The position numbers were made by a program, and so were the translations under genes. From Verrucomicrobium sp. BvORR034 (lineage in GTDB: Bacteria; Verrucomicrobiota; Verrucomicrobiia; Verrucomicrobiales; Verrucomicrobiaceae), in the NCBI RefSeq assembly GCF_000739635.1, contig NZ_BATQ01000168.1, positions 1-64,000 on the forward strand: a stretch of 64,000 bases of DNA, given 5' to 3'. Under the pieces are notes generated by a model. That model was not told the origin of the DNA, did no database searches, and saw only the letters and a program-made list of their open reading frames with translations. Below, piece after piece: positions 4,881 through 20,553 of the stretch. The stretch's first letter is position 1, and the number at the start of each line of letters is the position of its first letter.

Positions 4881-5564
4881 ATGCCCGATACCGAGTCAGA
4901 AAGCCCCTTCATTGTCTTCTTCAGCAAACAAAACGAAAAATGCTCCCGCTGCAGCCGCCCCATCATGCAGGGCGCCCTGCTCTGCGTGTACCGGGACCAC
5001 AAACTGACTTGCACCGGTTGCGAGAGACTGGGGGACCACCTGCTGCTGCCCGCGGGTGATGTGGCCCTGACCCGCCGGGCCACGAAACACTCCAACGTCG
5101 CGCATCCGGTCTATTCACCCGAGAAGCGGCGCAATCGGTACGAGCGGCGCGGCACGCTCGTGGAAGCGCACGCTCTCCAGCTCGCGGAGGCGGAATGCGA
5201 AGCCGATGCGGCGGACCGTGAAGTGAAACGCGCCAAGGACGCCGTGCGACGGGAGAAGATGGACCAGGAGTACATCGCGGTGTTTGCGATGCGCATTCGT
5301 CAGCTCTACCCCTCCTGTCCCGAGGGGTTGGAATCAGAGATCGCGATGCACGCTTGTGAGAAACACTCAGGCCGTGTGGGCCGGCGTGAAACCGCCCGCG
5401 AGGAACTGGACGATGAGTCCCTGAAGCTCGCGGTTCGAGCCCATATCCGCCACACCGAGACGCCGTACGACAAGCTCTTCGAAAGAGGCTACAAAAAGGA
5501 ACAGGCCCGCGACGCAGTGATCGACATCGTGAACCGGGTGGAACGCAAGTGGGCGGCCGAGTGA
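4881..5564 (+). CDS. DUF2293-type zinc-binding protein
   Basis: A 227-residue soluble protein. The first ~60 residues hold two Cys pairs (CSRC and CTGC) that probably bind zinc. A charged central helix rich in Ala/Glu/Arg follows. The C-terminal segment LAVRAHIRHTETPYDKLF...ARDAVIDIVNRVERKW matches my memory of DUF2293, a conserved domain of unknown function. It ends one base before the converging end of the Verru_Chthon D gene. No signal peptide, no membrane segment. Function unknown; a nucleic-acid or metal-related role would be guesswork. Confidence 0.6.
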   Translation: MPDTESESPFIVFFSKQNEKCSRCSRPIMQGALLCVYRDHKLTCTGCERLGDHLLLPAGDVALTRRATKHSNVAHPVYSPEKRRNRYERRGTLVEAHALQLAEAECEADAADREVKRAKDAVRREKMDQEYIAVFAMRIRQLYPSCPEGLESEIAMHACEKHSGRVGRRETAREELDDESLKLAVRAHIRHTETPYDKLFERGYKKEQARDAVIDIVNRVERKWAAE

Positions 5565-5565
5565 G

Positions 5566-6192
5566 TCAATAGAGCACCACCGCCCCCGTGCTGGCATTCA
5601 GCACGAGCGTGCGATAGTTCGACGGGAGCGCGTCAGGCGTGCGCTCCCAGTCGGTGGTGAGGGCGAGGGTCACACACCACTTCGGGGCCGAAGCACCGCG
5701 GGGCAGCGTCGTGCCGCCGTCTGGTTTGAAGGCAAACAGGGGCGGGGTGGTGTCCACATCCTCCACGGCGGAGGCGTTCACCAGGGGAGAGCGGGCCAGC
5801 AGGGTGGACCAGGCCTCCTGTTCGAGCATGATGGTGGATTTCTCCAGCAGGTTAACTTCACCAAAAGGCCTCCACTTTCCGGTGATGCGGTCCGGCACCA
5901 TGAGTTGCCAGCCTTGGAAATAACTCTGCCCTGCACCCCCGCCCTCCTGCTCCCGACGGAGGAAGCGGACGCCTACCAGACGGTTCTCCCGTGCCGCCAG
6001 CTGCGCTGCATAAGCGAGCTCGTTGGTGAACCGCGCGGAAGACGAGGTGAGCTGTTGCGCAGAGAGCGCAGATCCAATGGAAGAGGATGAGAGGGCCACC
6101 AGCATCGCCACCATGGCGATGACGACCATCATCTCGATCAAGGTGAAGGCTTCACCACGCGAGGCCGGGGAGGAGGGATGCTTAGTTCTCAC
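5566..6192 (-). CDS. Verru_Chthon cassette protein D (GspH/FimT-like pseudopilin)
   Basis: Fourth protein of the Verru_Chthon cassette, 208 residues. It has a type III prepilin signal AFTLIEMMVVIAMVAML, with Ala15|Phe16 at the expected cleavage site and the conserved Glu at +5 (Glu20), followed by a hydrophobic helix and a globular beta-rich domain. The short FimT/GspH-like layout suggests a minor pseudopilin. Its start overlaps the end of protein C by 11 nt, so the two are probably translationally coupled. It is the last gene of the cassette and converges on the DUF2293 gene. The cassette families are defined in Verrucomicrobium and Chthoniobacter; their function is not established. Confidence 0.85.
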   Translation of the reverse strand: MRTKHPSSPASRGEAFTLIEMMVVIAMVAMLVALSSSSIGSALSAQQLTSSSARFTNELAYAAQLAARENRLVGVRFLRREQEGGGAGQSYFQGWQLMVPDRITGKWRPFGEVNLLEKSTIMLEQEAWSTLLARSPLVNASAVEDVDTTPPLFAFKPDGGTTLPRGASAPKWCVTLALTTDWERTPDALPSNYRTLVLNASTGAVVLY

Positions 6193-7300
6193 GGGATGAC
6201 ATCAGTTTGGCGGCCGGGATCTGCACTGCAGTGGAGAAGACGCGGAAGCCGAGTTTGAGATTGACCAGTTCGGTCTCCAGCTTCTTCACGTCGCTCTCGT
6301 ACTCCGCCGCCGTGATGAAGACCTTCGTATTGGCCACCGTGCGCAACTGGGTGGCAAGCGCATCCGTGCCCGAACTGTCCAGCTTGGACCAGTCGCGCTC
6401 ATCCAGGGCCACCAGCGTGAGGCGGATCATCGGAGGGAGTTGATGACGGCTGCGTTCCGCCATGGTGGTGGTGTCTGGCCACTGATGACGGCGGGTGTCA
6501 TAGATGTAGTTGGGCGCGGCCGTGGTGTCCGCCCCTGTGTCCTTGCCAGGCATGGGCCACACGGGCTGCACGAAGATGGCAAGGATGTTCTCCGCGACCG
6601 GCTGGGAGTCTGCCGCCAGATCAGAACGGAACCAGTCATAGAGACCATTTTGGGTGTTCTGCGCCTCCACCCACGGGATCTTCGTAGAGGTGGCACCGCC
6701 GTTGGGCGGAGTGACCAGACGGTAGAGGGAGAGCTTCTCTGTGGGCTGGCGGAATTCCATCAGGCGAAACCGCTTCCTCTGCGGGTGGGCAAGGGTGTCT
6801 TCCAAGAACGCCGGACGCCGAGGCAGGTCGCTATCATAAGTCACATACCACCCCCAGGCGTTGAGCATGGACTCCAGTCCATAAGGCTCTGTGGAAGCAG
6901 GGTTGGGACTTCCGGGATCCAGATTCTCCCCCAGCGGAGCCTGGAAGAAGACGGCGTGTCCTGCGGCCGGCACTGTATTGCCCAGCAGGGTTGTGACGGG
7001 CCCGTTCACGTAGTGCAGCTCGGACTGGCGCTGGTAGAGCAACGGGTTGCCGTTCGCATCCAGCTTGTAGCCCCAGTACGAATTGAGCGTGGCTTGAGAA
7101 AGCCGGGCAGCAATCGCTTCAAAGGCAGCCCGTGCCTCCCGGAACTCCTCCGTCCGGGCCTTGGCACGGCCCCAGGTGATCTGGGTGTCTGACAACACCT
7201 GGGACAACACCATCATGAGCACCGAGAGCACTGCCACGGATACCAGGAGCTCAATCAAGGTGAATGCCGCCGTCTTGCGGGATGGGCAGTGGCCGGACAT
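6182..7300 (-). CDS. Verru_Chthon cassette protein C (GspJ/PilW-like)
   Basis: Third cassette protein, 372 residues. The N-terminus carries a prepilin-type motif AAFTLIELLVSVAVL with Ala12|Phe13 as likely cleavage point and Glu17 at +5, then a long hydrophobic helix. The rest is a beta-rich extracytoplasmic domain with segments such as ESMLNAWGWYVTYD. Position, length and motif resemble GspJ or PilW minor pilins; this is an analogy, not shown homology. It starts 8 bp after the stop of B and overlaps D, consistent with one polycistronic message. Confidence 0.85.
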   Translation of the reverse strand: MSGHCPSRKTAAFTLIELLVSVAVLSVLMMVLSQVLSDTQITWGRAKARTEEFREARAAFEAIAARLSQATLNSYWGYKLDANGNPLLYQRQSELHYVNGPVTTLLGNTVPAAGHAVFFQAPLGENLDPGSPNPASTEPYGLESMLNAWGWYVTYDSDLPRRPAFLEDTLAHPQRKRFRLMEFRQPTEKLSLYRLVTPPNGGATSTKIPWVEAQNTQNGLYDWFRSDLAADSQPVAENILAIFVQPVWPMPGKDTGADTTAAPNYIYDTRRHQWPDTTTMAERSRHQLPPMIRLTLVALDERDWSKLDSSGTDALATQLRTVANTKVFITAAEYESDVKKLETELVNLKLGFRVFSTAVQIPAAKLMSSREN

Positions 7301-7308
7301 AGGGCGGA

Positions 7309-7827
7309 TTAGTTGGAGGCCACAGCGGCCGCGCTGGCCGTCTTGCCCGTCTGCGCCAGGAGGGTCTGCGCACGCTTGCAGGTGGCGGGTTTTTGAAAGG
7401 CAAGGTCAGGATTGGGGCTGCTGGTGACCAGGATCTGCACCGCCTTCAACCTTGGGTTCGAGGAAGACATGCCCGGCAGCGGCTTCGCGTCCGTCACTGA
7501 CACGCGTGCCGTAAAGATGGCGCTGGTGTCGCCCGTCTTCACCCGCGTGCCCTGGGCATCGAAGGCGTAGTCCTGCTGGCTCCCCTGCTGCTGCTGCTGG
7601 AGCACATCACTCCATTCCCGCATGCGGTAGTCTGAGGAAATAGACTGCACGATCCTGGCAGAGGCGGTAGTGTTGGAGGCCTCGCGCAGCGTGTCCAAAG
7701 ACACGGGGATCAGCCCCACCAGGGCCACCAGCACGGTGGCGGCGATGCCGACGGCGATGGTGGTCTCCACCAGGGAGAAGCCGCGACAGTGAGTGAATTT
7801 CTTTGAAGGTGGCAGGGTCAGTTTCAT
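7309..7827 (-). CDS. Verru_Chthon cassette protein B (GspI/PilV-like)
   Basis: Second cassette protein, 172 residues. The canonical prepilin motif CRGFSLVETTIAVGIAATVLV has Gly16|Phe17 cleavage and Glu21 at +5. The FSLVE form and short length resemble PilV/GspI minor pilins. A coil of six Gln residues occurs mid-protein (QQQQQGSQQ), an odd low-complexity patch. The start codon overlaps the stop of A in an ATGA arrangement at 7824-7827, so B is probably translated by coupling to A. Confidence 0.85.
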   Translation of the reverse strand: MKLTLPPSKKFTHCRGFSLVETTIAVGIAATVLVALVGLIPVSLDTLREASNTTASARIVQSISSDYRMREWSDVLQQQQQGSQQDYAFDAQGTRVKTGDTSAIFTARVSVTDAKPLPGMSSSNPRLKAVQILVTSSPNPDLAFQKPATCKRAQTLLAQTGKTASAAAVASN

Positions 7828-10800
7828 GGCATGAACGTTTTGCGGGTGATGACGCGGAAGCGGTAGTAGTCGTCCAGGGCTCCGCTCTGGGTGGGGTTGG
7901 CGAAGTAGTTGGGAAGCTCCGGATCGTTAGGATCGATGTAGCGCTCGATGATGGAGGAGCCGCGCTGTTCTGCGGTGACGGCATCCTTGCTCTCATCCCA
8001 CTCGTTCGCGGCGGTGGAACGGGCCTTCTTGAGCACCTGCACCCGGTAGTGCACGGTGAAGATGTTCGACTTGGTGGTGAGGCGGGGGTAGAGCTGGTTG
8101 TAGGGGGACTCGCGCACGTTGTCGCCGGTCAGCTCAAACCCGTCCTTCTGGCTGGTGAGGCTGCCGTTCCACCAGGTGACCATACTCTCATAGGTGGGCG
8201 ATGAGCTTGGCAGCCCGTCGGCACGCGGGTAGTAGGTGCGGCCCGACATCGGCTTGGGTACGAGGAAAATATCACAGATCTCCGAGGCGCTTCGGAAGAT
8301 GTCGCCCTGGTCGAACCGCTGGCGGAAGCCCTTCATGGTCTCGTCAACGTTGACGTCGTAGGTGTTCTCGTAGCGATACCAGTGCTCCCAGCTCTTGTAG
8401 CACTGCTCCATCTGGTCGGCCGTCACGGCATTGGTCGTGGTGTCCTTGGGCCAGGCGGATTCCGCGGGCAGCGCCGTGATTTTCACACTGCGGAGGGCGG
8501 CGTAGAGCCCGGTGTCCCGTTGAATGTAGGAGAAGGGCATGATCTGGGTGTTGAGATTGATCTTGCCTGCGGTGGAGAAGGGTTCGCTGATGGCATAGGG
8601 CTCCACCACGGGCATCCAGAACATGTCCAGGAGCAGGTGATCCCGCGGCGGGCGGAAGCCCCAGTGGTCCGTCTGAATGGGCTCCAGATTGGCCGCACGT
8701 ACGCGCGAAGGAGGGTTGGGACAGAAGAGCAGCGTCTGCCAGGGCCCCACGCGATTGCTGTTCGCCGGGGTGGGATGAATGCCGGTGGGCAGCGAGCCAA
8801 AGGCCACGGCCGAACAAATCTGTCGATTGGGCGAGTACGTCCTCCCATTGGTTTCCTGGTTGAACCCGTCACGGGCAAAGTACCCGACCCTCACCCCCAC
8901 CACGTCACCGGTGGCACCCGTGTCGTCCGGCTTGTTGATGTACGGCCCGTCTTCGATACGGCCCATGCCGCTGTCCCAATCACCAGGGCGGTTGGTGGCA
9001 TTGTAGGCCCCATCCAGCTGATACGGCGCGGCTGGCTGGCAGTCCTGCCAGTAGGGAATGTCCTTGAGCAAGCCGTAGGGCTTGGTCACCTTCTTGTCGT
9101 TGCCGATGGTGTAACCCGCGAGCTGCCAGATGTGCTGCTTGCCGACCGTGTTGTAAACGTTGGCATTCCCGTGAATGCGGCCGTAGTGACCGGTGAAGGT
9201 CGTACCGGCATGACGCAACGTCTGAGCCTCCTCCTTCGTGGTGCTCTGGTAGTCCGGGTGAAGCCTGTAGTAGTCCGCCGGAATGTCCCGCAGACCGCAC
9301 ATGAGGCGGAAGTCGCCCTTCATGCTGGTGTTTTGCGCATTGGTGATGACCGACCGTACGGTGTCACCCAGGACGATGAGATAGTTCTGCGGATCATTCT
9401 TGTTGAAGCGTGTTTGGAGGTCCATGCACTCCTTGGCCACGGTCCAGTTCGCGTTGGAGGGCATGCTCGAATTCACCCGCACGGTCGGAACCGGCCAGGC
9501 CCCAGTGGGGGTGGAGAAGTTCAAGGTCGCCGATTGGATCAAAGTGGTGTCATCCAGCTGCCCGGCGGCGCCGCTGCCCACATGGGTCTCGATGGTGATG
9601 GGACCGCCCGTGAACTGGAAAGTGTTCTGCGTGGAGACATCCACGTCGACACTCACAAACGGGAACGAGTTGGTCTCATCCGCGCCGACACCGCCGATGG
9701 CGATGGATTTCATCAATCCGCCCCGCGCCCGGTAGAACTGAGCATGAAAGGAGGTGTAGGCGGTGGAGTGACCACCATCCTTGGCCGAACCCGCGGGCAC
9801 CCAGACACGATTGACACCTGCCGCGGGAAAGCCCAGAGGCTGGCTGTTCACCTTCCAATTCTCCATGCCCTTGATGCGATAGCGCACGTTGGGAGAATAA
9901 GGCGGCATGCCCACCACCGGGGTGAAAGGCTGGAGCACGAGATAGGCGCGCATGCGTTTCGTCTTGTCGGCCTTGCTGTCGGCCGGGGCCACATCTTTGG
10001 GGCTGCCGTCCGGGTTGCTGTCCACCTCCGTGGCCATGAAGATGAGCGAAGCCTCGACCACCGTGGGAAAGCGGCCAAACGCCTTGAGCTTGGATCCAAA
10101 GGATTCTGCGGAAGTCCCCTGCGACACGACCGGCACGGCGGCGGCCTCCGCGAGGTACTCATTGTTCAGCCCAGTGTAGGCCCGCGGCGGGATGTAGTGG
10201 TACTTGGGCGTTTCATAGGGGTTGCTGGCGTTCACCCCCCAGCGAACGAGATCGAACATCTCCAGCAGCACCTGGTTGCGATTCATCGAACCGTACTTGT
10301 CATCAAAGGTGGCGGTGCCAAATCCGGGGATGCCCGCCTTGGTCAGCTTCTGCAGGTAGGTGAACAGGGTCTGGTTGCCCGCGAGCTGAAAATCCGCCGT
10401 GGGGCTCTGGGAAGAACCCTGCTTGCTAGAGTCATTCTCCCACGTCGAGGCGCGCTGGAAGGCACCCACCTGCCCGCCGGAGGTGGCACAGAAGGCCAGC
10501 AACTTGTCCTTGGCCGTACGCTTGGTGGTCTCCGCCTGGATGGGCCAAAGGGAGATGCGGGGACGGTTAAAGAGGTTCACCTCCGGAGCGCGACTGTGCG
10601 CGGTGAGGAAGAACCGCCCCGCTTCCAGATCCGATGCATCTACCGATCCGCCGGCTCCATTGGGAAGGCGATGCCCGGTGGCGGCATCAAAAGAAGAGCC
10701 ATAGAAGAACTCATCCACCGAGGTGAAGAGACGGTCCCTCTTGAGCGGGATGCCGGTGGCACCGGTGACGGCCTCCGTACCGCCCATGGTGCTCTCCCCG

Positions 10801-11855
10801 GTCGCGCCCAACTGGACGCGGGGCAGCAGGTCATAGATGTTACGCAGCCAGGTCTGGTAGGATGTCTTGTTGGTCACCGTGCCGTCGCTCTGGACCTGCG
10901 GGAACTGGTAGGCGTATTGGGCATCAAACCCCTGGAGCACGGTGCTCAAGCAGGTCATGGCCGGATGACCAGGAAAGCGCTGAAACTCGTTCTGGCCCGG
11001 AACGTAGTAGGCGAAGTTCCGGTCGGACCAGCCCACGGCCTTCGGCACATCCCAGCCCGTGCCTTCACCCGCGGTGTTGATGTTGACCTTGCAGCTCTCG
11101 TCATCCGTCCAGAAGGCGATGCGTCCCACGATCGGATTGTTTCCTGTGACCACGTCCTTCTTGAAGGTGGCACGCCCGCCTTCACCGCCATCCGGCGCCA
11201 CCACCGTCCCGTCCTGCAGCACGTAAAGCCAGCGCAGTGGCATGGGCATGGGCTGCTCAGCCGTCGCTCCGGGGGCAGCGACGGTGGAGGAAAGGCCGAA
11301 CCCCGCCACCTTGCCTGCCGTGATGCCGCCAGAGGTGGGCAAAGCACTGGAGTCCAGCACGGGATACACGCGACGGACATTCCCATTCGCATCCAGTCTG
11401 GCGACGGGCTCGTTCAAGTCGGTGAACTGGGCGGTGTTTTGTTTCCAGTCCGTCAGCGTGCCGACTTCGTTGCTGGCATTGAAGTCGGCCCCTGCCTCGG
11501 ACATCTTGTCTGAGGAGTAGAGCCTCCAGGCGGTCTCCAGCTTGGCCCGCCCTGCCACCGTGCCCGCCGTGGTGCCGTACACGCGAATCATGCCCGGCTG
11601 GGAGGCCCAGGTCTTGCTCAGCCCCAAGCCGGAGGTGGCCTCGCGAACCTGACCCATGACTATGCTCACTGGCATGTCAGTAAGGCTGCGCACCTGTGAG
11701 GTCTGGCTGAAGGCGGAGGAGGATCGCGCTTCAGAGGAGCCCATGGACAACAGAGCCAGCACCAAGCCCATGAGAAGGGCCACGATGGCGAGCACCATCA
11801 CCAGCGCCATCCCGGTCTGCCGGCGTTTCCAGTGAATGAAGATTCGGTTGTTCAT
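7824..11855 (-). CDS. Verru_Chthon cassette protein A (PilX/GspK-like, giant)
   Basis: First cassette protein, 1343 residues. The N-terminus reads RQTGMALVMVLAIVALLMGLVLALLSMGSSEA, a PilX/GspK-like start: a short basic leader, Gly before a hydrophobic helix, no Glu at +5 as in GspK. A very long extracytoplasmic part follows, with motifs recalling GspK such as FWTDDESCKVNINTAGEGT. It is about four times longer than GspK. Start ATG at 11855 lies 30 bp after the stop of the PATR/PEP-CTERM gene, so the five genes may share a transcript. The role is probably the large capping or adaptor subunit of a pilin-like assembly; client unknown. Confidence 0.85.
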   Translation of the reverse strand: MNNRIFIHWKRRQTGMALVMVLAIVALLMGLVLALLSMGSSEARSSSAFSQTSQVRSLTDMPVSIVMGQVREATSGLGLSKTWASQPGMIRVYGTTAGTVAGRAKLETAWRLYSSDKMSEAGADFNASNEVGTLTDWKQNTAQFTDLNEPVARLDANGNVRRVYPVLDSSALPTSGGITAGKVAGFGLSSTVAAPGATAEQPMPMPLRWLYVLQDGTVVAPDGGEGGRATFKKDVVTGNNPIVGRIAFWTDDESCKVNINTAGEGTGWDVPKAVGWSDRNFAYYVPGQNEFQRFPGHPAMTCLSTVLQGFDAQYAYQFPQVQSDGTVTNKTSYQTWLRNIYDLLPRVQLGATGESTMGGTEAVTGATGIPLKRDRLFTSVDEFFYGSSFDAATGHRLPNGAGGSVDASDLEAGRFFLTAHSRAPEVNLFNRPRISLWPIQAETTKRTAKDKLLAFCATSGGQVGAFQRASTWENDSSKQGSSQSPTADFQLAGNQTLFTYLQKLTKAGIPGFGTATFDDKYGSMNRNQVLLEMFDLVRWGVNASNPYETPKYHYIPPRAYTGLNNEYLAEAAAVPVVSQGTSAESFGSKLKAFGRFPTVVEASLIFMATEVDSNPDGSPKDVAPADSKADKTKRMRAYLVLQPFTPVVGMPPYSPNVRYRIKGMENWKVNSQPLGFPAAGVNRVWVPAGSAKDGGHSTAYTSFHAQFYRARGGLMKSIAIGGVGADETNSFPFVSVDVDVSTQNTFQFTGGPITIETHVGSGAAGQLDDTTLIQSATLNFSTPTGAWPVPTVRVNSSMPSNANWTVAKECMDLQTRFNKNDPQNYLIVLGDTVRSVITNAQNTSMKGDFRLMCGLRDIPADYYRLHPDYQSTTKEEAQTLRHAGTTFTGHYGRIHGNANVYNTVGKQHIWQLAGYTIGNDKKVTKPYGLLKDIPYWQDCQPAAPYQLDGAYNATNRPGDWDSGMGRIEDGPYINKPDDTGATGDVVGVRVGYFARDGFNQETNGRTYSPNRQICSAVAFGSLPTGIHPTPANSNRVGPWQTLLFCPNPPSRVRAANLEPIQTDHWGFRPPRDHLLLDMFWMPVVEPYAISEPFSTAGKINLNTQIMPFSYIQRDTGLYAALRSVKITALPAESAWPKDTTTNAVTADQMEQCYKSWEHWYRYENTYDVNVDETMKGFRQRFDQGDIFRSASEICDIFLVPKPMSGRTYYPRADGLPSSSPTYESMVTWWNGSLTSQKDGFELTGDNVRESPYNQLYPRLTTKSNIFTVHYRVQVLKKARSTAANEWDESKDAVTAEQRGSSIIERYIDPNDPELPNYFANPTQSGALDDYYRFRVITRKTFMP

Positions 11856-11885
11856 AGGATCGATGATTGGGCGAAGGCAGAAGGA

Positions 11886-14800
11886 TCAGAGACGGCGGCG
11901 GCGGCGCAGCACCACGCCAGCGAGAGCCATCATGAGGAGGGCGGCGCGACCAGGCTCTGGCACCACCACCACCTGGATGTAGAGGCCGTTGAGGTCGGTG
12001 GAGAGCTGCCACTTCAAGTCCTCGCCGAGATCCGGCATGTCCAGCAGACCGAGAGAGCCGGTGAACTTGGCATTGTTCGGGTTCCCACCCACAACCACGT
12101 TGCTCCAGTCGATGAGCTGCCACTTGTCCAGCTCCATCCAGAACTCGGAGGTTTCGTTGATATCCGTCACCTTCAGCGTACCTCCCAGCACGATGGCGCT
12201 GTCACTCTTCAGCACGAGCACGTCATTGGTGGCCAGCGGGGAGCTCAGGTTCGAGTCTCCGCCAAAGTTCTCCACGATGTCGAACTCCAGCGTCCCCTGA
12301 AGGGTGATGATCCCGGTTCCGCTGTTCTGCAGGGTGAAAGACTGGCCGGTGCTGTCCCCAAATTCACCCAGCTTGCCCACCTGGAGGGTGGCCCCGCTGT
12401 TGATGGAGATGTTGCGGTCGGCGGCGGTCACGACCGAGCCTGTGCCGCCGAACCTCGCGCCCGACTGCACCGTGACATGCCCCGTGCCCGTGCCGCTTCC
12501 GGCAGTGTTCTGTACCAGGTAAGTCCCGCCCGTGACGGTCGTTCCGCCTGTGTAGGTGTTGGCGGAGGAGACCGTCACCGTGCCTGCGGTGCTTTTCGTC
12601 ACCGCAGCACTGCCATCCAGGATGGCGGTCACGGTCCCGTTGCGCAGATCATAGGAGCTGGCTGTGAGCACTCCGGTGGAACCTTCGATGGTTCCATTCG
12701 TCAGCGTCACTGCGGCGACGGTCTCATTGTTGGTGCCCAGACTGAAGATCGCGCTGGCTCCGTTCACCGTCACGGCTCCGGTATCGGCGAGCACTCCGGC
12801 CGCCCCCAGCGCCAGCGTACCATCCAGAATGGTGGTGCCGCCTGTGTAGGTGTTGCCTCCTGACAGCGTCAACACACCCGCCCCACTTTTGATCAGCCCG
12901 CCACTGGAGTTGCTGCTGAGAGCCACGGTGCCCGCGCTGGCGGCCGTGGTGGCCCCACCCCCGTGCAGCGTGACCGTGAGCACATCCCCATCCACATAGC
13001 CGGTGCCGGGATTGGTGATGGTGAAACCTGTGACCACACCGTTCACCACTGTAGCCACCGCCGTGGCTCCCGTGCCCGAGCCACCGCTGATCACCACCAC
13101 CGGGGTGTCCACATAGCCGGTACCGCCACCCGCCACAGCGATGCTGCTGACGCCGCTGCCGTTGGGCGCGAGCAGCGCCTGGCCAATCGTGATGTCAAAG
13201 CCCGCGGTGTCGATCTTTGCTCCGCCCGAATAGACAAAGGCGTTGGTGAGCCCGGTCATGAAGGTGGTGTTGGTCGCATTGGCCTTCAAGGTGCCGCCAT
13301 TGAAGTTGAACAGGCCGGTGCCCGCCCCCTTGGTCACCCGGTTGGTCGTGAGGATGCCGCCCAGGAGGTTGACCGTGCCGTTGGAGGCCGCCCCGGTCTG
13401 GCCGAGCGCAAGGCCGTTGGTCGCCAGGTTGACGGCAGCGGAGCCGGAGAGGTTCAAGACGCCAACTCCATTCTCACCCACGAACATCCCACCGCTACCA
13501 CTCAGCGCGGAGAAGGTGGCGGAGCCGCTGAGGTTGTACACCCCGATGGATCCCGCGCCCCCTGCTCCGACCGTCATGCGGTTGGAATTCACAAAGACAT
13601 CACCAGCGGTCTGGTTGAAGATGGCGCGGTCGTTGTTGAAGGCTACCACGAACCAGCTGCCCGAGGTGACCGTACCGCCGCTCATGGACAGGGCAGCGAA
13701 GGCTCCGGCACCCCGCCCCAGGTGAAACTCACTGGTGGTGGTGATGCTCCCCGAGGACATCCTCACAAAGCCACGGCTACTGGCCACGGAGCCCACCGCA
13801 AAGCTGGGGCTGGTGTTCTTCGTGGCGTTCAGTGTGCCGCCTTCAACAGAGAGGATCGCGTTGAGGTTCGCGGTATCACCAATCGTGACCTGGCCGATGT
13901 TGGCTGTATTGAGGGCATTGACCGCCCCCAGCAGGCGGAGCGTCCCCTCGGTGACATTGAGGGTGCCGGTGAAGGTGCTTTGCCCGGTGAGGCTGAGCGT
14001 GCCCGTCCCGTTCTTCACCAGGCCAAAGCCGGTGCCACTGATTGCCCCGCCCACGGTCAGGGTGCCGGAGCCGTTGGTGGTGATCGTGCGGGTGGCGGAC
14101 AGCGTGACACCGCCCGTGCCCAAATTCAGGTCATGGGCGCCGCCATAGACGAAGTTGGCGTTCCACACCATCGCGTTGTTCGTGCCCACCGTCACCGCAC
14201 CACCGCTGGTGTTGTTGATCGTGCCTCCGTTGATGGTGAAGGTGCCGGTACCCAGAGCAGAGTTGCCTCCGCCTGTACCTCCCTGGTTGATGTTCAAGGT
14301 GGTGCCGGAAGACAGGTTGAGCCCGCCGGAGAAGGTGCTGTTGCCAGACAGGGTGAAGGCACCCGTGCCGGCCAGGGTGAGGGTACGGGCCCCGCTGATG
14401 ATCGAGGAAATCACCGCGGCATTGGCGGAGTTGTTGGTCCACGTCTGATTCGCCCCCAGCGCGATGCTCTGGACAGAAAGAGTGAGTGCGCCCGCCCCGG
14501 AGTTGATCGTGATGCCCGCAGGGTCAACGATCGTGAGCACATTGGCCCCACCGATGCCCACCGCGTTCGGGGTATTGATGGTGAGCGACTTGATGGAGAT
14601 GTCTGCCCCGAGGGTGGTGCTGCTTTCATTGGCCGCGCCGGTCGCGGAAAAGATCACCGCTGAAGTGCCGTCGAGCGCCTGGCCTGGATCCGTGGTCCCG
14701 GCCGCGTCACTGGTGAAGTTGGAGTTACCGCCGCTGAGGGCACTCCATACGCCGCTCACGTCTCCCTTCCAGTAGGCCACCTCAGGAGAGGTGCTTGTGA

Positions 14801-17800
14801 AGACATTCAGAGTCAGCGTATTCCCGCCGGTCACGCTGAGGGAGAGGTTGAATCCCGCCAGGGAGGCGGCCGCGAGTTCGAAGTTGGACGCACTGATGCC
14901 CGTGGCCCCGGTGATGAGCTGGTAGGAGCCCGCCCCGTAACCGGCAATGTTCACCAGGTTGATGGTGGCGACGCCGCTGGTGAAGGTGTAGGTCCCGCCG
15001 GTGAGCGCGACCTGGTCGCCTGTGGTGCCAAGGTCAAAGGAAAGTACATTCCCACCGGTGAGGGTCAGCCCGGCGGAGAGGGTGAGCGTCCCCGACTGGC
15101 CGTCCTGGAGATTGATGGCGGATCCGGCACCCGTCAAAGAAACGAGGCCTCCAATGGTTCCGTTGCCCCCCAGCGCCCCGGTGGTGGCCACAGTGACGGC
15201 CGTGTTGCCGAGACGACCGGTGATGCGCAGCAGGCCGCCGTTGATCTGGGTGGCACCGGTGTACGTGTTGTTTCCTGAGAAGGTCTGGGTGCCCGTGCCT
15301 GCCTTGATGATGCCGAGGGAGGTCGCCAGCCCGTTGCTGATCACCCCGCCAAAGGTCTCGCTGCCAGTGCCGGAGAGCGTCAACACCGGATTGCCGCCAG
15401 CGGCGTTGGAGGTGATGGTGATGGCTGATGCGTCGTCATAGGTCTTCAGCAGACCGGTGGTCTGGCTGTTGCCATTGAGGTCCAGAGTCGTACCCGCCCC
15501 CATGGTCACGGTTCCAGTTCCCAGCACTCCAGAGTTCGCGTTGTTCACCAGCAGCGTGCCGCCGGTGATGGCCAGGCCGCCGCTGTAGGTGTTGGCTGCG
15601 CCACTGAGGGTGAGCGTGCCCGCCCCGGTCTTGGTGAAGAGCCCTGCTCCAGTGATGTTTCCTGAGAGCGTGGAGGCGTTGCCATTCGTGTCAAAGGTAC
15701 CCGCCCCCGTGAGGGTGACCGCCTTGGCCGTGGTGATGCCTCCCGTGGCGGCCTGCAGGGTGCCGCCGTTGAAGACGATGCCGTTGGTGGTGTTCCCGCC
15801 GTTGATCCCCGCCGTGGCGGCACGCAGGATGCCGCCGTTGAGATTGATCACGCCCGTGAAGGTGTTGGCGTTGCTGAGATGCATCGTGCCCGCTCCGGCC
15901 TTGGTGATGCCGGCCCCGCTCAGAACACCGGAGACCAGCAGATCTACGCCGGAGGCGGTTGCGCCCTGGGCGGTGGTGAAGGTCATGGGTCCCGTATCGC
16001 GCGATACCACGTTCCCGCTCACCGTCGAGGTGACGGTGCTGGCCAGGGTGGCGATGCCGAAGCCCGTGGTGAAATTGTACGCTCCGCCACCGGTGGAGGA
16101 CATGGTGGCCCCGGTGAGGTTGAAGTTTGTCCGGTACCCCTGATTGCCCACCACCGTGTTGTTCACCGTTCCGCCCACCACGTTGACCGTGGAAACCCGG
16201 GTGGCATCGTTGTTGAACCCAAGCGAGTCGGCAAAGGACAGATTGAGCTGAGCGCCGGAGTTCACGGTGACGGTTCCTCGAACCGCACCCGCTCCGCCAC
16301 CGGCCGACAGCACCAGCGTGCCGGAGTTCACCACCGTGTTGCCAGTGTAGGTGTTGATCTGGTTGAAGGTGGCCACTCCGCTGAAGACATCCCCGCCGAT
16401 CACGCCAAACGTCACGCCGCCCGTGCCGCTGATGACTCCGGTCTGGGCGACATTCCCGTTGCCCGTGAAGGTCACTCCGAATCCTCCATTGGTCACGGCC
16501 CCGAGGGTCAGCAATGTGGTGCCGCCGATGGTGGGGTTCACGATATGGAACGTGGGGGCCGCCGTGAAGGTGGTGGCTCCAAAGGTGATGCCTGCCGTGC
16601 CGCTGCTAACATTCGCACCACCTGCCACCACGAGGCGCTGCGCCCCGATGGAAAGCGTTCCCAGCGTGTGAGTCACGCCCGCCCCGGCCGTGAGGCGGTC
16701 CGAGGTGACTCTGGCATCGCCGGTCACCGTGGTGTTGCGCCCAAAGTTCAAGGCGGTGTCATTGGCAAGCTGCAGCTCCCCGCCTGCCAGCGTCAGAGCG
16801 CCTGCCCCGAGCGCCGAGGCGCTGGTGGTAGCGCGCAACACCCCGGCGTTCACCGTGGTCGCCCCGGAGTAGGTGTTGACTCCTGAAAGCGTCACCGTGC
16901 CCAGCCCGCTTTTCGTCAGCGAGCTGGCTCCGTTGGCCAGAATGTTCGTGGTGATGGCGAGGCTGTCATTAAGCTGATCCGCGCGGATCACGAGCTCTGC
17001 ACCGCTGGCAGCCTGGATGCCCGTGCCGCCCGAGAGGGTGGCCCCACCAGCGACATTGCCTGATTTCAGGATGCCATTGACCGTCAGGGTCGCACCAGTG
17101 TTGAGGGTGAAGCCTGTGTTCCCGCTGAGGTTCAAGGTGGTGAAGGTGGCCGTGTCCTGAGCGGTGACGGCTCCAGTCGTCTGCACATGCGTTCCAGTCA
17201 GCGTGGTGCCTCCCGCAAAAGTAAAGGCCCCGGAATCAAACCCGTACTGGAGATCACGAACATAGCCGGTGGCATCATAGAAAGCGTAGGCGCTCCCGCC
17301 GTAGAACGTGCCTTGATCGATGAACGACCCGGCGGGGACGCCACTGGCAAGGACAATCTTGTTGGTTGTGCCGTTGGCACCTCCAGAGATCACAAAATTG
17401 GCCGCGGCCCCGGCGGTGCGGACGAAGGAGGCAAACGTGAGCGTGGTATTGCCACTGCCTCCATAAGTGGAGGTCACCGTCCCCTCGCCCACTGAGAAGA
17501 TCAAAGCCCCCATGCCCTGGCTGCTGCCAGCCGCTTCGTTGAACTCGATGCCACCGGTTCCTGCAAAGGTCAGAGCCGTACCTGTGATGCCATTCAGGGA
17601 TCCCGTAGTACCGTTGCCCACCTTCAAGAGACCGCCGCGAACGGTCGTGAGGCCGGTGTACGTGTTGGCTCCTGTAAGCTGCATGGTGCCAGCGCCTGCC
17701 TTGGTCAATGCTCCCCCTGTGGTGACACCTTGGGCCCAAACCAGCCTGGCAGACACCAGCAGGTCTGTGCTTGCGCTCGCAGTGGCATCTGCCACCTGAA

Positions 17801-19217
17801 AGGTGATGGTCCCGTTCAGCATGACCCCGTTGGCCACCGTATCCGCCACGTCCGTGTTGATCGTGGATACGCTGGTGCCACCCACAGTGACGGTGTTGGA
17901 CAAGATGATGCCCTGATAGAGGTTGCTGAAGCCATTGCCGGTGGTCAGCGTGCCGCCGTTCATGGTGATAGGCCCGAGGGCATTTGCATCCCCTCCACTC
18001 ACTCCGCCGCTGACGGTGGTCACGGCCGTCCGAACCACGCCGCCCTGATTGATTACAATCCGCAATTGTGGAGTCGATGTGGCATTGCCCATGGTGTTGC
18101 CATTGGCCAGGAGCAAGGTTCCACCACTGTTGACGGTCAAGACGCGTCCCGCAGTCTGGGTGTTGCCCAGGGCTGTTGTCGTGGGATTTGCCGCGTTGCG
18201 ATTCAGCGCCGTGGTGAGGGTACCGCCATCCACCACAATGTTGCCTGTGAACGTACTGAGAGCGTTGAGCGTCAAAGTGCCTGTCCCTGTCTTGATCAGA
18301 TTTCCCGCTCCACTGATCACTCCGGTGAAAGTCGTGGAGGCATTGTTGGCCCCGACGATCAGGTTCACGTTGGCGGTGTTCACATCCGTCAGCGCGAGAG
18401 CTCCGCTGCCTGCGAGACCACCCACGTTGAAGTTCAGCACACCCCCGCCGAAGGCCACACCGTTGGCCACGTTGTTGGTCAGGGTGCTGTTCTGCACGGC
18501 ATTGGCATTCGCGAGCCGGAGCACGCCAGCCGTGACGGTGGTGGCACCCGTGTGAGTATTGGCCCCGGCCAGCACCCAGGTGCCTGCGCCGGTCTTCGTA
18601 ACGCCCACAGAGGTCGCGCCGCTATTGGAAATAACTCCGCTTAAAGTGCCTCCGCCTGCGCCTGTCAGCGTCAGGGCCTTCACCCCGGCCGTGCCGCCAG
18701 CGCCGCCGCTGATGGCCCCTGCAAAATTGAGCAGGGCCGTCGTGTTGTTGTTGGTGAAGGTGTAACTCTGGGTGGTGGCATCTGTGCCCAGCAGGAGGGC
18801 GGCATTGATGAGCTGGTTGTTGATGAGGGCGGCATTCATCGTGATGCTGCCTCCGTTGCCCAGCGTAAGCGTTTGACTGCCCACCGCGTCTGACCCCAGC
18901 ACATAGGCGGAAGCCTGATTGGTGTCGAAGATCACCGACTGGATCGTCACCCCGGCACCGAGATTGATGACCGTGTTACCACTGCCTGCACCATTGAAGG
19001 TGGCGGCATCTCCTGCTCCTGGAACGGCATTGATATCCCAGTTGGCAGCACCTGCCCAGGTGTTGTCCTGGCTGCCGTCCCACACGCCTGTCGCAGCCTG
19101 GGCGAGCCCTGCTGCACCCAACGCCGCCGCGAGAAGGATGGCCACCACAGCGCGCAGGGGACGCCGCGTGGTATCATTTCGCCAATCGCGATTCCCGACC
19201 GTTGTCAGGCTCGTCAT
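11886..19217 (-). CDS. Giant autotransporter-repeat (PATR) surface protein with PEP-CTERM tail
   Basis: About 2443 residues. ATG 19217 is chosen over 19307 because it gives a clean signal peptide (basic RRPLR, Ala/Leu core, AQA cleavage near residue 41). At least 12 passenger-associated transport repeats are visible, each of the form K-x-G-x-G-T-x-x-L-x-G-x-N-T-Y-T-G-x-T-x-x-x-G-G-x-L. A GVWDG...NWD...FNGAG opening module near residue 43 recurs in altered form near residue 1480 (YWKGDVSGVW), so the protein looks like two tandem passengers. The C-terminus is a PEP-CTERM sorting signal: VPEPGRAALL, a hydrophobic helix, then RRRRRL. There is no beta-barrel, so it is not a classical autotransporter; exosortase sorting is expected. 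Directly upstream of Verru_Chthon A. Confidence 0.9.
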   Translation of the reverse strand: MTSLTTVGNRDWRNDTTRRPLRAVVAILLAAALGAAGLAQAATGVWDGSQDNTWAGAANWDINAVPGAGDAATFNGAGSGNTVINLGAGVTIQSVIFDTNQASAYVLGSDAVGSQTLTLGNGGSITMNAALINNQLINAALLLGTDATTQSYTFTNNNTTALLNFAGAISGGAGGTAGVKALTLTGAGGGTLSGVISNSGATSVGVTKTGAGTWVLAGANTHTGATTVTAGVLRLANANAVQNSTLTNNVANGVAFGGGVLNFNVGGLAGSGALALTDVNTANVNLIVGANNASTTFTGVISGAGNLIKTGTGTLTLNALSTFTGNIVVDGGTLTTALNRNAANPTTTALGNTQTAGRVLTVNSGGTLLLANGNTMGNATSTPQLRIVINQGGVVRTAVTTVSGGVSGGDANALGPITMNGGTLTTGNGFSNLYQGIILSNTVTVGGTSVSTINTDVADTVANGVMLNGTITFQVADATASASTDLLVSARLVWAQGVTTGGALTKAGAGTMQLTGANTYTGLTTVRGGLLKVGNGTTGSLNGITGTALTFAGTGGIEFNEAAGSSQGMGALIFSVGEGTVTSTYGGSGNTTLTFASFVRTAGAAANFVISGGANGTTNKIVLASGVPAGSFIDQGTFYGGSAYAFYDATGYVRDLQYGFDSGAFTFAGGTTLTGTHVQTTGAVTAQDTATFTTLNLSGNTGFTLNTGATLTVNGILKSGNVAGGATLSGGTGIQAASGAELVIRADQLNDSLAITTNILANGASSLTKSGLGTVTLSGVNTYSGATTVNAGVLRATTSASALGAGALTLAGGELQLANDTALNFGRNTTVTGDARVTSDRLTAGAGVTHTLGTLSIGAQRLVVAGGANVSSGTAGITFGATTFTAAPTFHIVNPTIGGTTLLTLGAVTNGGFGVTFTGNGNVAQTGVISGTGGVTFGVIGGDVFSGVATFNQINTYTGNTVVNSGTLVLSAGGGAGAVRGTVTVNSGAQLNLSFADSLGFNNDATRVSTVNVVGGTVNNTVVGNQGYRTNFNLTGATMSSTGGGAYNFTTGFGIATLASTVTSTVSGNVVSRDTGPMTFTTAQGATASGVDLLVSGVLSGAGITKAGAGTMHLSNANTFTGVINLNGGILRAATAGINGGNTTNGIVFNGGTLQAATGGITTAKAVTLTGAGTFDTNGNASTLSGNITGAGLFTKTGAGTLTLSGAANTYSGGLAITGGTLLVNNANSGVLGTGTVTMGAGTTLDLNGNSQTTGLLKTYDDASAITITSNAAGGNPVLTLSGTGSETFGGVISNGLATSLGIIKAGTGTQTFSGNNTYTGATQINGGLLRITGRLGNTAVTVATTGALGGNGTIGGLVSLTGAGSAINLQDGQSGTLTLSAGLTLTGGNVLSFDLGTTGDQVALTGGTYTFTSGVATINLVNIAGYGAGSYQLITGATGISASNFELAAASLAGFNLSLSVTGGNTLTLNVFTSTSPEVAYWKGDVSGVWSALSGGNSNFTSDAAGTTDPGQALDGTSAVIFSATGAANESSTTLGADISIKSLTINTPNAVGIGGANVLTIVDPAGITINSGAGALTLSVQSIALGANQTWTNNSANAAVISSIISGARTLTLAGTGAFTLSGNSTFSGGLNLSSGTTLNINQGGTGGGNSALGTGTFTINGGTINNTSGGAVTVGTNNAMVWNANFVYGGAHDLNLGTGGVTLSATRTITTNGSGTLTVGGAISGTGFGLVKNGTGTLSLTGQSTFTGTLNVTEGTLRLLGAVNALNTANIGQVTIGDTANLNAILSVEGGTLNATKNTSPSFAVGSVASSRGFVRMSSGSITTTSEFHLGRGAGAFAALSMSGGTVTSGSWFVVAFNNDRAIFNQTAGDVFVNSNRMTVGAGGAGSIGVYNLSGSATFSALSGSGGMFVGENGVGVLNLSGSAAVNLATNGLALGQTGAASNGTVNLLGGILTTNRVTKGAGTGLFNFNGGTLKANATNTTFMTGLTNAFVYSGGAKIDTAGFDITIGQALLAPNGSGVSSIAVAGGGTGYVDTPVVVISGGSGTGATAVATVVNGVVTGFTITNPGTGYVDGDVLTVTLHGGGATTAASAGTVALSSNSSGGLIKSGAGVLTLSGGNTYTGGTTILDGTLALGAAGVLADTGAVTVNGASAIFSLGTNNETVAAVTLTNGTIEGSTGVLTASSYDLRNGTVTAILDGSAAVTKSTAGTVTVSSANTYTGGTTVTGGTYLVQNTAGSGTGTGHVTVQSGARFGGTGSVVTAADRNISINSGATLQVGKLGEFGDSTGQSFTLQNSGTGIITLQGTLEFDIVENFGGDSNLSSPLATNDVLVLKSDSAIVLGGTLKVTDINETSEFWMELDKWQLIDWSNVVVGGNPNNAKFTGSLGLLDMPDLGEDLKWQLSTDLNGLYIQVVVVPEPGRAALLMMALAGVVLRRRRRL

Positions 19218-19557
19218 GGCATCATCATTACATTGGCAACTGCGGAAGAGCATTGAAGGGCAGGTTGGAGTCGTTCCTTGAGGATTCAGTGAAGTAACCT
19301 GGATCATAGGGAACCCAGGCCCGGTCCGTCTCTAGAACATATGTTCTACCGGGCTCGGGAGCGGCAGGCGCCACACCGCACACAGATGGCGAACGCCCTG
19401 TAAAGATGTGAATGCCTGCATGACACGATCATCGCGGCCCCGTGTCGAAATGGCTTGGACCCGTCAGTCCACTTTTGGTATGGATCCGCCTTCCCCGGAC
19501 GAACCATCCTCCCCGCCCTTCGTTTTCTATTTCATATAACCCATGCTCCGCACAGAT
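19218..19557. other. Control region upstream of the PATR gene
   Basis: 340 bp between the PATR start and the end of the AraC-type gene. It contains the perfect 16-bp palindrome listed separately at 19333-19348. I see no other gene, terminator hairpin or repeat. Confidence 0.5.
19333..19348. promoter_or_regulatory. Perfect 16-bp palindrome, candidate operator
   Basis: TAGAACATATGTTCTA is a perfect palindrome 116 bp upstream of the PATR start. Its core AGAAC-N4-GTTCT recurs at 20482-20499 ahead of the histidine kinase. The shared core and the placement in the two control regions around AraC regulator 1 suggest one binding protein for both. Which protein is inference. Confidence 0.5.
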
Positions 19558-20379
19558 CTATGAAGCCTGACGGCGGCGCTTGCGGAAGGCCAGCGGCGTC
19601 TCACCCGTATGGATGCGAAACTGCCGCGTGAAGGCACTCTGGTCATAGAAGCCGTTGTCCTGGGCCACCTCCGCCACCGTCTTGTCAGAGCCCAGCAGTT
19701 CATCACTGGCCGCCTGGATGCGGGTGCGGATGATGAACTCCTGGACACTCATGCGGAAGATCTCTTGGAATCTCCGGTTCAACTGCCGCTCGGAGATGCT
19801 GGCCAGACGGGCCATGTCCTCCACAGGAATGCGATCCCGGTAGTGGGCATGGACATAGGCCACCACCCGCTGGACCTGCAGGTCAGACGCAGCACTTCCC
19901 GGCGCACCAAAATAAGGCCGAACGATCCCCATCACCCCCACCGCCGCTCCGGATGCGTCGTAAATGGGCAGCTTCGTGGTCAGGAACCAGTCCTTGGCCC
20001 GGGTGCGGGCGTACAGGGCCTCCACCTTGTTGATGATGGGCTGCCCGGTGCTCATCACCCGAAGATCATCCTCACGAATGACGCGGGCCACAGTGACGGG
20101 ATGGATGCTCTCATCGCTGGCCCCCAGGAGCTCCTCCTCATCTCTCACCCCGATCCTGTCCAGCGTGCCCCGGCTTACGGCGATGAACCGGCTCTCGCGG
20201 TCTTTGGCAAAGAAGTCTGTGTCCGGCAGGTACTCAAACAACGTGCCCAGTTGCCGGGCCACACCGGGCTGAGCCAGGAAGCGCGCCTGGAAGTCGCGGG
20301 GCGACACCTTGGCAGCACTGCCTGAGGTAGCGTAGGATTCATGGCTGCGGAAGGGAGGAGAAGGCAGGCTGATGCTCAT
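19558..20379 (-). CDS. PAS-AraC transcriptional regulator 1
   Basis: A 273-residue cytoplasmic regulator. Residues ~30-155 form a PAS-like sensor (LFEYLPDTDFFAKDRESRFIAVS...GASDESIHP...FLTTKLPIYD...GVMGIVRPY); the C-terminal ~100 residues are a two-helix-turn-helix AraC/XylS domain (ARLASISERQLNRRFQEIF and VAQDNGFYDQSAFTRQFR...TGETPLAFRKRR). It is paralogous to regulators 2 and 3, which are closer to each other. It lies between the PATR gene and the divergent histidine kinase, and both flanking gaps hold AGAAC-N4-GTTCT palindromes. It may control either. The signal is unknown. Confidence 0.88.
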   Translation of the reverse strand: MSISLPSPPFRSHESYATSGSAAKVSPRDFQARFLAQPGVARQLGTLFEYLPDTDFFAKDRESRFIAVSRGTLDRIGVRDEEELLGASDESIHPVTVARVIREDDLRVMSTGQPIINKVEALYARTRAKDWFLTTKLPIYDASGAAVGVMGIVRPYFGAPGSAASDLQVQRVVAYVHAHYRDRIPVEDMARLASISERQLNRRFQEIFRMSVQEFIIRTRIQAASDELLGSDKTVAEVAQDNGFYDQSAFTRQFRIHTGETPLAFRKRRRQAS

Positions 20380-20481: not shown

Positions 20482-20499
20482 ACAGAACGAATGTTCTGT
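20482..20499. promoter_or_regulatory. Inverted repeat ACAGAAC-GAAT-GTTCTGT, candidate operator
   Basis: Seven-bp arms around GAAT in the divergent gap between AraC regulator 1 (start 20379) and the histidine kinase (start 20554). It is 55 bp upstream of the kinase, where an operator or -35 region would lie. It shares AGAAC-N4-GTTCT with the palindrome at 19333-19348. Confidence 0.5.
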
Positions 20500-20553
20500 T
20501 TTTTCGAAGTCTGGTATGATGCAGAATCGACGTTTCATATTCCCCCTCCCGCC

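Follow-up and report, generated by a model that had tools for sequence, protein, structure and literature searches.

In the type II secretion system (T2SS) the tip of the pseudopilus is capped by GspK. GspI and GspJ form the indispensable core of this tip, with GspH as its bottom piece (PMC6211770). Tagged surface proteins of Myxococcus and Vibrio (MYXO-CTERM and GlyGly-CTERM, respectively) cross the outer membrane by the T2SS after C-terminal processing (PMC11980579), and outer-membrane targeting has been proposed for PEP-CTERM proteins by Haft and colleagues, who reported 65 of them in Verrucomicrobium spinosum (PMC1569441). A 2026 paper on Verruconatronum alginivorum describes 67 PulG-like pseudopilins and also a pseudopilin that is over-expressed on alginate (PMC13274419). 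We have analysed a window of 64,000 nucleotides from Verrucomicrobium sp. BvORR034 (contig NZ_BATQ01000168.1, positions 1 to 64,000; C33 in our numbering), in which four neighbouring genes on the minus strand encode Verru_Chthon A, B, C and D, in that order. The original prediction, made from the sequence alone, stated that these four families are defined and that their function is not established; our literature search likewise found no paper on their function, nor any on PEP-CTERM proteins together with prepilin-type proteins in this phylum. We find that A-D are homologues of the T2SS minor pseudopilins and that most of the cassettes in this genome adjoin a gene for a tagged surface protein. 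The idea that the cassettes encode T2SS tip complexes that are interchangeable, used under specific conditions and meant for large exported proteins has, in our judgement, about an even chance of being correct.

All four proteins are clear members of their families. A (1343 residues, 7824..11855) scores 1704.7 bits with TIGR02600 against a cut-off of 332, B (172 residues, 7309..7827) 172 bits with TIGR02598 against 51, C (372 residues, 6182..7300) 453 bits with TIGR02599 against 256 and D (208 residues, GTG start, 5566..6192) 252 bits with TIGR02596 against 70; D also matches GspH at 3e-13. The A and B genes overlap by 4 nt (ATGA), B and C are 8 bp apart and C and D overlap by 11 nt (gaps of -4, 8 and -11), in agreement with the open reading frames (ORFs) and tight junctions described beforehand. 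The span assigned at that time, 5566-11855, contains the A-D set but leaves out a gene that probably belongs to the same operon. This gene (11886..19307, minus strand) ends 30 bp before the start of A, encodes a PATR-repeat protein of 2473 residues with a PEP-CTERM tag and is probably the first gene of the A-D operon, which would then cover 5566-19307. Its product is the candidate client of the cassette.

For each cassette protein 22-24 paralogues were aligned, and every aligned sequence was compared with the NCBIfam families. For A the sole family matched other than its own was GspK (20 of 24 paralogues, best 2.8e-11), and 21 of the 22 D paralogues matched GspH. C matched GspJ (16/22), together with other pilin families, while B was divided between PilV (11/22), XpsI (5/22) and GspI (3/22). 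A glutamate at position 5 is typical of all pseudopilins except GspK. The prepilin sites of B (G/FSLVE), C (A/FTLIE) and D (A/FTLIE) carry it and that of A (G/MALVM) does not, and the pattern extends to the relatives, with Glu5 present in 22/22 B, 75/75 C and 22/22 D proteins but in 0/75 A proteins. Since the scores lie below the equivalog cut-offs (23.9 against 130 bits for GspK, 50.1 against 80 for GspH and 24.7 against 64.85 for GspJ), A, D and C are homologues of the Gsp subunits and not equivalogs. No Pfam match to A was found at E<=0.01, and no PilX family in NCBIfam or Pfam. When the PDB was searched with the sequence profiles, A gave no matches, B and C matched in the N-terminal helix, and the matches of D were to pilins, mostly in the N-terminal helix, with a weak match to FimU (E 0.06) and artefacts from repeats, WD40 among them.

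Structural evidence was obtained for C and for a relative of A, whereas B and D are assigned from sequence profiles. The model of C (predicted local distance difference test, pLDDT, 90.5) aligns over residues 44-369 with EpsJ, GspJ and XcpW at Z scores of 9.1-10.3 in VIA; a Thermus pilin is tied with these at 10.7 and the first unrelated entry is at 4.8. The predicted structure of C therefore has the GspJ fold beyond the N-terminal helix. For A the model was built on a complete relative of 1080 residues (L137) from 75 aligned sequences (pLDDT 88, predicted template-modelling score 0.88). The best of 998 chains in VIA was GspK (3ci0_K; Z 6.8, root-mean-square deviation 3.0 over 164 residues), followed by an entry at 4.9. 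The match spans residues 48 to 1080 of the model and 29 to 315 of GspK; both ends of A thus align to one small protein, as would a GspK carrying insertions, and we regard A as probably, though not provably, a GspK with very large insertions. One of these is predicted to form a beta-sandwich at about 507-723 of the 1080-residue model. Foldseek alone returned no match at E<=0.001 for either model, and the fold results rest on VIA.

Short GspK-like motifs occur in A beyond residue 60, and the strict forms of all five are found in order in 7 of 75 A proteins. A tandem duplication of GspK inside A, with its two KxNxN and two SxxE motifs, was considered and rejected, as the halves do not align as profiles (5 columns). 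The verrucomicrobial GspK consensus itself has two KxNxN/SxxE pairs, and one GspK stretched by insertions is therefore the simpler reading. The original prediction had taken A-B-C-D as K-I-J-H in type II secretion terms, citing prepilin signals with Glu5 in B, C and D and a start of A that lacks it. Both features are borne out by the counts given above, and profiles, Glu5 pattern and model matches together make the assignment well supported. The finding named in advance as fatal to it was a lack of shared fold beyond the N-terminal helix; the models speak against such a lack, clearly for C and probably for A.

Gene order points in the same direction. Paralogous sets in this genome are also arranged D-B-C-A, B-C-D-A and B-C-A-D, and the first of these, found in seven cassettes, is the canonical gsp order H-I-J-K. 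In two distant relatives (L156 and L169) the order is (G)-H-I-J-K, the last gene encoding a protein of about 1000 residues; in L169 the first gene is scored as GspG. The recurrence of H-I-J-K in paralogues and distant relatives ties the cassettes to a pseudopilin operon of the ordinary kind.

In the genome of 8.58 Mb, searches and the stretches around their matches gave about 23 loci that hold A or the larger part of the set. A PEP-CTERM/PATR gene adjoins the cassette on the same strand in 17 of the 23, where 0.48 would be expected by chance in 46 neighbour slots (binomial 3e-22), an expectation that takes 72 tagged sites over the cut-off and an estimated 6900 or so genes. Of the 214 genes in 268 kb taken from elsewhere in the genome, none was tagged. 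Included in the 17 are L025, with one gene of 409 residues in between, L017, with a gap of 553 bp, and L029, which consists of A only and whose neighbour ends beyond the contig. The client gene lies upstream, downstream or divergent, and at many loci the genes overlap or are less than 60 bp apart, which suggests co-transcription. The link between cassettes and PEP-CTERM/PATR genes is supported as non-random.

The unit of cassette and client is also kept between species. Among 80 further loci, those on GTDB contigs of Verrucomicrobium sp. BvORR106 and of a Prosthecobacter metagenome-assembled genome are the most closely related. In the former, an ortholog of the giant gene that is 90% identical stands beside the A ortholog, and four pairs of cassette and client are conserved between species (A 81-97%, client 90-96% identity). 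In the latter, the best client segment is the last ~270 residues (51%), beside an A that is 70% identical; judging by sequence, this C-terminal segment might be a lead for a recognition site. The tag is frequent beside Verrucomicrobium cassettes, occurs beside some of those in Chthoniobacter and is often missing elsewhere. The commonest domain in the untagged flanking genes of the relatives is LacI (8 of 108), and GH130, GH2, GH16, GH3, GH5 and GH106 glycoside hydrolases and BNR proteins are found in the same flanks. The common denominator across lineages is a pseudopilin set tied to large surface or polysaccharide-active proteins. In a search of the phylum 7 of 289 genomes had matches over the cut-off; 149 further weak matches, mostly to the N-terminal ~60 residues, were excluded from the cassette count.

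The giant protein of the window has matches to TIGR02601 (3e-66), to the PEP-CTERM family TIGR02595 (19.1 bits, cut-off 16) and, in Pfam, to PF12951 (PATR) only. No C-terminal autotransporter beta-barrel was detected in Pfam and NCBIfam scans, and the PATR-only content and PEP-CTERM end rule against a classical autotransporter (type V secretion). Three matches to the exosortase family PF09721 are present in the genome. Exosortase was rejected as a marker of cassettes, occurring in 7/7 genomes that have them but also in 17/26 others. At one locus a PEP-CTERM tag directly precedes an exosortase gene on the same strand (G000:C70:40384-41252, L249).

The original prediction noted that no gene for an ATPase, secretin, platform protein or prepilin peptidase is adjacent. 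Genome-wide searches place no secretin, GspE-type ATPase, GspF or A24 peptidase on the contig of the window, and find this machinery on others: 15 secretin matches, 14 T2SSE-type ATPase matches, GspF-type genes on five contigs and A24 peptidases on C110 and C111. Only two sites, on C116 and C24, score above the GspG cut-off, and they mark two separate T2SSs. The system on C116 includes GspH-, GspJ- and GspK-like genes of its own, and the run on C24 reads G-H-I-J, with no GspK adjoining it. Since both systems have minor pseudopilins of their own, the cassettes would be additional tips and not missing parts. It is a matter of speculation that the C24 system might take A proteins.

More than 20 tip-like sets, most of them adjoining a gene for a large surface protein, suggest that different tips are used on a shared export machine for different cargoes. 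We infer that A-D, once cut by a prepilin peptidase whose gene lies elsewhere, would assemble into one complex at the inner membrane, with an I-J-K core plus H, and that this tip would start a pseudopilus on a separately encoded T2SS instead of the tip native to that machine. Engaging a particular large exported protein, here likely the neighbouring 2473-residue PATR protein, would fall to the oversized A, which has about 1000 additional residues in the periplasm. An exosortase would process the PEP-CTERM tail, and the folded body would be pushed through the secretin to the cell surface. With many cassettes, several of which have their own regulators, one machine could be re-tipped for each cargo and condition. 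That the cassette selects its client we rate neither above nor below an evenly balanced proposition. A bolder version is possible but doubtful: the T2SS of these bacteria would be modular, with one or two machines, more than 20 interchangeable GspH-I-J-K sets, each expressed for a cargo or condition of its own, and a giant GspK-like cargo selector, and would also supply the missing outer-membrane route for PEP-CTERM proteins.

Several observations weigh against the cassettes being cargo-specific tips. The Z score of the match between A and GspK is moderate, and a full-length profile alignment of the two failed past the first 60 residues, which align with an E value of 7.5e-8; for these two reasons the fold of A is graded as probable. 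The original prediction proposed a genome-wide check of whether each cassette co-occurs with a PATR/PEP-CTERM gene, and the association, strong as it is against the 0.5 or so expected, does not extend to all: five of the 23 (L014, L016, L019, L022 and L030) have no tagged neighbour, and at L020 the only one is divergent. Conversely, about two thirds of the PEP-CTERM genes, including those for proteins of 7040 and 5103 residues, are without a pseudopilin gene in the flanks examined. The similarity between A proteins within the genome follows that between client C-termini only weakly and not significantly (rho 0.26, p 0.07), although L021 and L026 are a mutual best pair in both. LacI and glycoside hydrolase genes are the neighbours of many cassettes outside the Verrucomicrobiaceae, and while some of the flanking enzymes have an N-terminal hydrophobic stretch, the GH2 proteins of L122 and L129 seem to be without one, so that not every neighbour can be a client.

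These last observations bring to mind pseudopili that face glycans, in which the giant A itself binds polysaccharide for capture or uptake at carbohydrate-responsive loci and the neighbours are co-regulated rather than cargo. The prominence of LacI and of hydrolases in the flanks, the enzymes that seem to have no signal peptide, the beta-sandwich inserted in A and the induction of a pseudopilin on alginate in another member of the phylum (PMC13274419) would all fit. We nevertheless consider this rather unlikely, because the beta-sandwich gives weak fold matches (Z under 5) that do not point specifically to carbohydrate binding, and because the tight PEP-CTERM link in this genome would be left unexplained. 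The giant protein could instead stay on a filament tip as an adhesin, as does PilY1 with FimU-PilV-PilW-PilX, and not be a released substrate. Myxococcus xanthus has gene content of this kind, four minor pilins and a large surface protein, with several such clusters served by one machine (PMC7541494); in addition, B scores best with PilV, and there are PilB-type ATPases and GspF/PilC-type genes at C154. No PilY1/PilC propeller domain was found with Pfam in the giant protein, however, where PATR is the only match, and A resembles GspK, over both ends in the model, with no PilX family. The PEP-CTERM tail moreover predicts membrane sorting and not incorporation into a filament, and the position of the client relative to the set varies. 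An adhesin tip is accordingly unlikely.

It might also be that the neighbourhood has no functional meaning, two amplified families having been brought together by shared duplication or insertion, and that the role of the cassettes is unrelated to their neighbours. Both families are indeed amplified, the gene order is shuffled, the client changes position and there is no clear co-variation of A and client. Yet the occurrence of several orders and of both client positions implies that the link has been kept or re-made through rearrangement, which disfavours passive co-duplication; the short or overlapping junctions suggest co-transcription, and cassettes and clients persist together between species. 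This explanation we regard as quite improbable, and we retain that of cargo-specific T2SS tips as the most likely.

Regulatory genes lie close to the set. A PAS and AraC-type regulator (19558..20379, minus strand; PF08448, PF12833 and PF00165) is encoded upstream of the giant gene and may control the cassette operon, and a divergent sensor histidine kinase of the Reg_prop type (20491..23553, plus strand; PF07494, PF07495, PF07730 and PF02518) may provide input to the locus. Past D a convergent DUF2293 gene (4881-5564) is outside the set. HisKA_3 kinases and response regulators adjoin other cassettes, at L012 (9564-12379) and L013 (439-3300), the response regulator of the latter being called from sequence alone. 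Cassettes in genomes of the Chthoniobacter/Spartobacteria type at L108, L117, L118, L121, L122, L129, L135 and L141 stand beside LacI and GH2, GH3, GH5 or GH106 genes, an arrangement suggesting carbohydrate-responsive loci. Two of the untagged cassettes of this genome have enzyme genes downstream, L030 one for a sulfatase and L022 one for an aminotransferase.

Other arrangements of the same gene types were recorded. On C38 (G000:C38:106298-125294; L017 and L018) three A genes accompany a single B-C-D set and a single PATR/PEP-CTERM gene, which makes A look like the part that varies. Solo A-like proteins, some 1150-1470 residues long, ending in FGR(R/K)F..(S/R)F(R/K)WL and with no B, C or D, are encoded in Akkermansia-like and other Verrucomicrobiota genomes (L150 4610-18143, L151, L154, L155, L157, L160, L161, L162, L165, L166 and L167), usually alongside a small secreted protein of about 190-300 residues; L150 has three copies in 19 kb. 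In place of a full cassette, some PEP-CTERM genes have one D- or B-like pseudopilin gene beside them, at a distance of 3-25 bp or with an overlap (L201 6187-8147, L214 12-3397, L243 7063-8232 and L244 7110-8741). A PATR/PEP-CTERM gene for 7801 residues adjoins a cassette at G000:C145:1729-25134 (L021 with L043), and an open frame of 7040 residues at G000:C82:30043 has no cassette in the flanks examined. At G000:C23:29826-35066 (L012 with L036) the tag of a PATR/PEP-CTERM ORF lies at residue 969 and is followed by in-frame read-through to 1746 residues in total, either a fusion or an assembly or frame error.

Neither substrate recognition by the T2SS nor the exit of PEP-CTERM proteins from the periplasm is settled. 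In a genome that has about 23 natural tip sets, most of them with an evident candidate cargo, both questions become gene-deletion experiments, and four families for which we found no functional paper gain a concrete, testable role. In relation to the Verru_Chthon definitions, the subunit assignment by profile and fold, the alternative gene orders including H-I-J-K and the genome-wide PEP-CTERM link are new. In V. alginivorum, of the same phylum, pseudopilins are likewise strongly amplified and linked to polysaccharide loci, but they are PulG-like single proteins, unlike the H-I-J-K sets described here (PMC13274419). The MYXO-CTERM/myxosortase and GlyGly-CTERM/rhombosortase systems also concern surface proteins with a C-terminal sorting tag, theirs being processed at the inner membrane and exported by the T2SS; here the tag is PEP-CTERM, the enzyme an exosortase and the outer-membrane route not established, and the part of that account drawn on here does not mention dedicated pseudopilin sets (PMC11980579). 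The closest organizational parallel is provided by the type IVa minor pilin/PilY1 clusters 1-3 of M. xanthus (PMC7541494), from which the cassettes differ in having no PilY1 domain, an A of GspK and not PilX type, a PEP-CTERM tag and far more clusters. With the GspH-GspI-GspJ-GspK tip of the T2SS (PDB entries 3ci0, 5vtm and 9a1f) the cassettes share the one-to-one pairing of profiles, the Glu5 pattern, the fold of C, the best model match of A, which is to GspK, and, in some paralogues, the canonical order; they are set apart from it by scores below the equivalog cut-offs, a location outside any gsp operon, some 23 copies per genome and, in the window, an A about four times the length of GspK.

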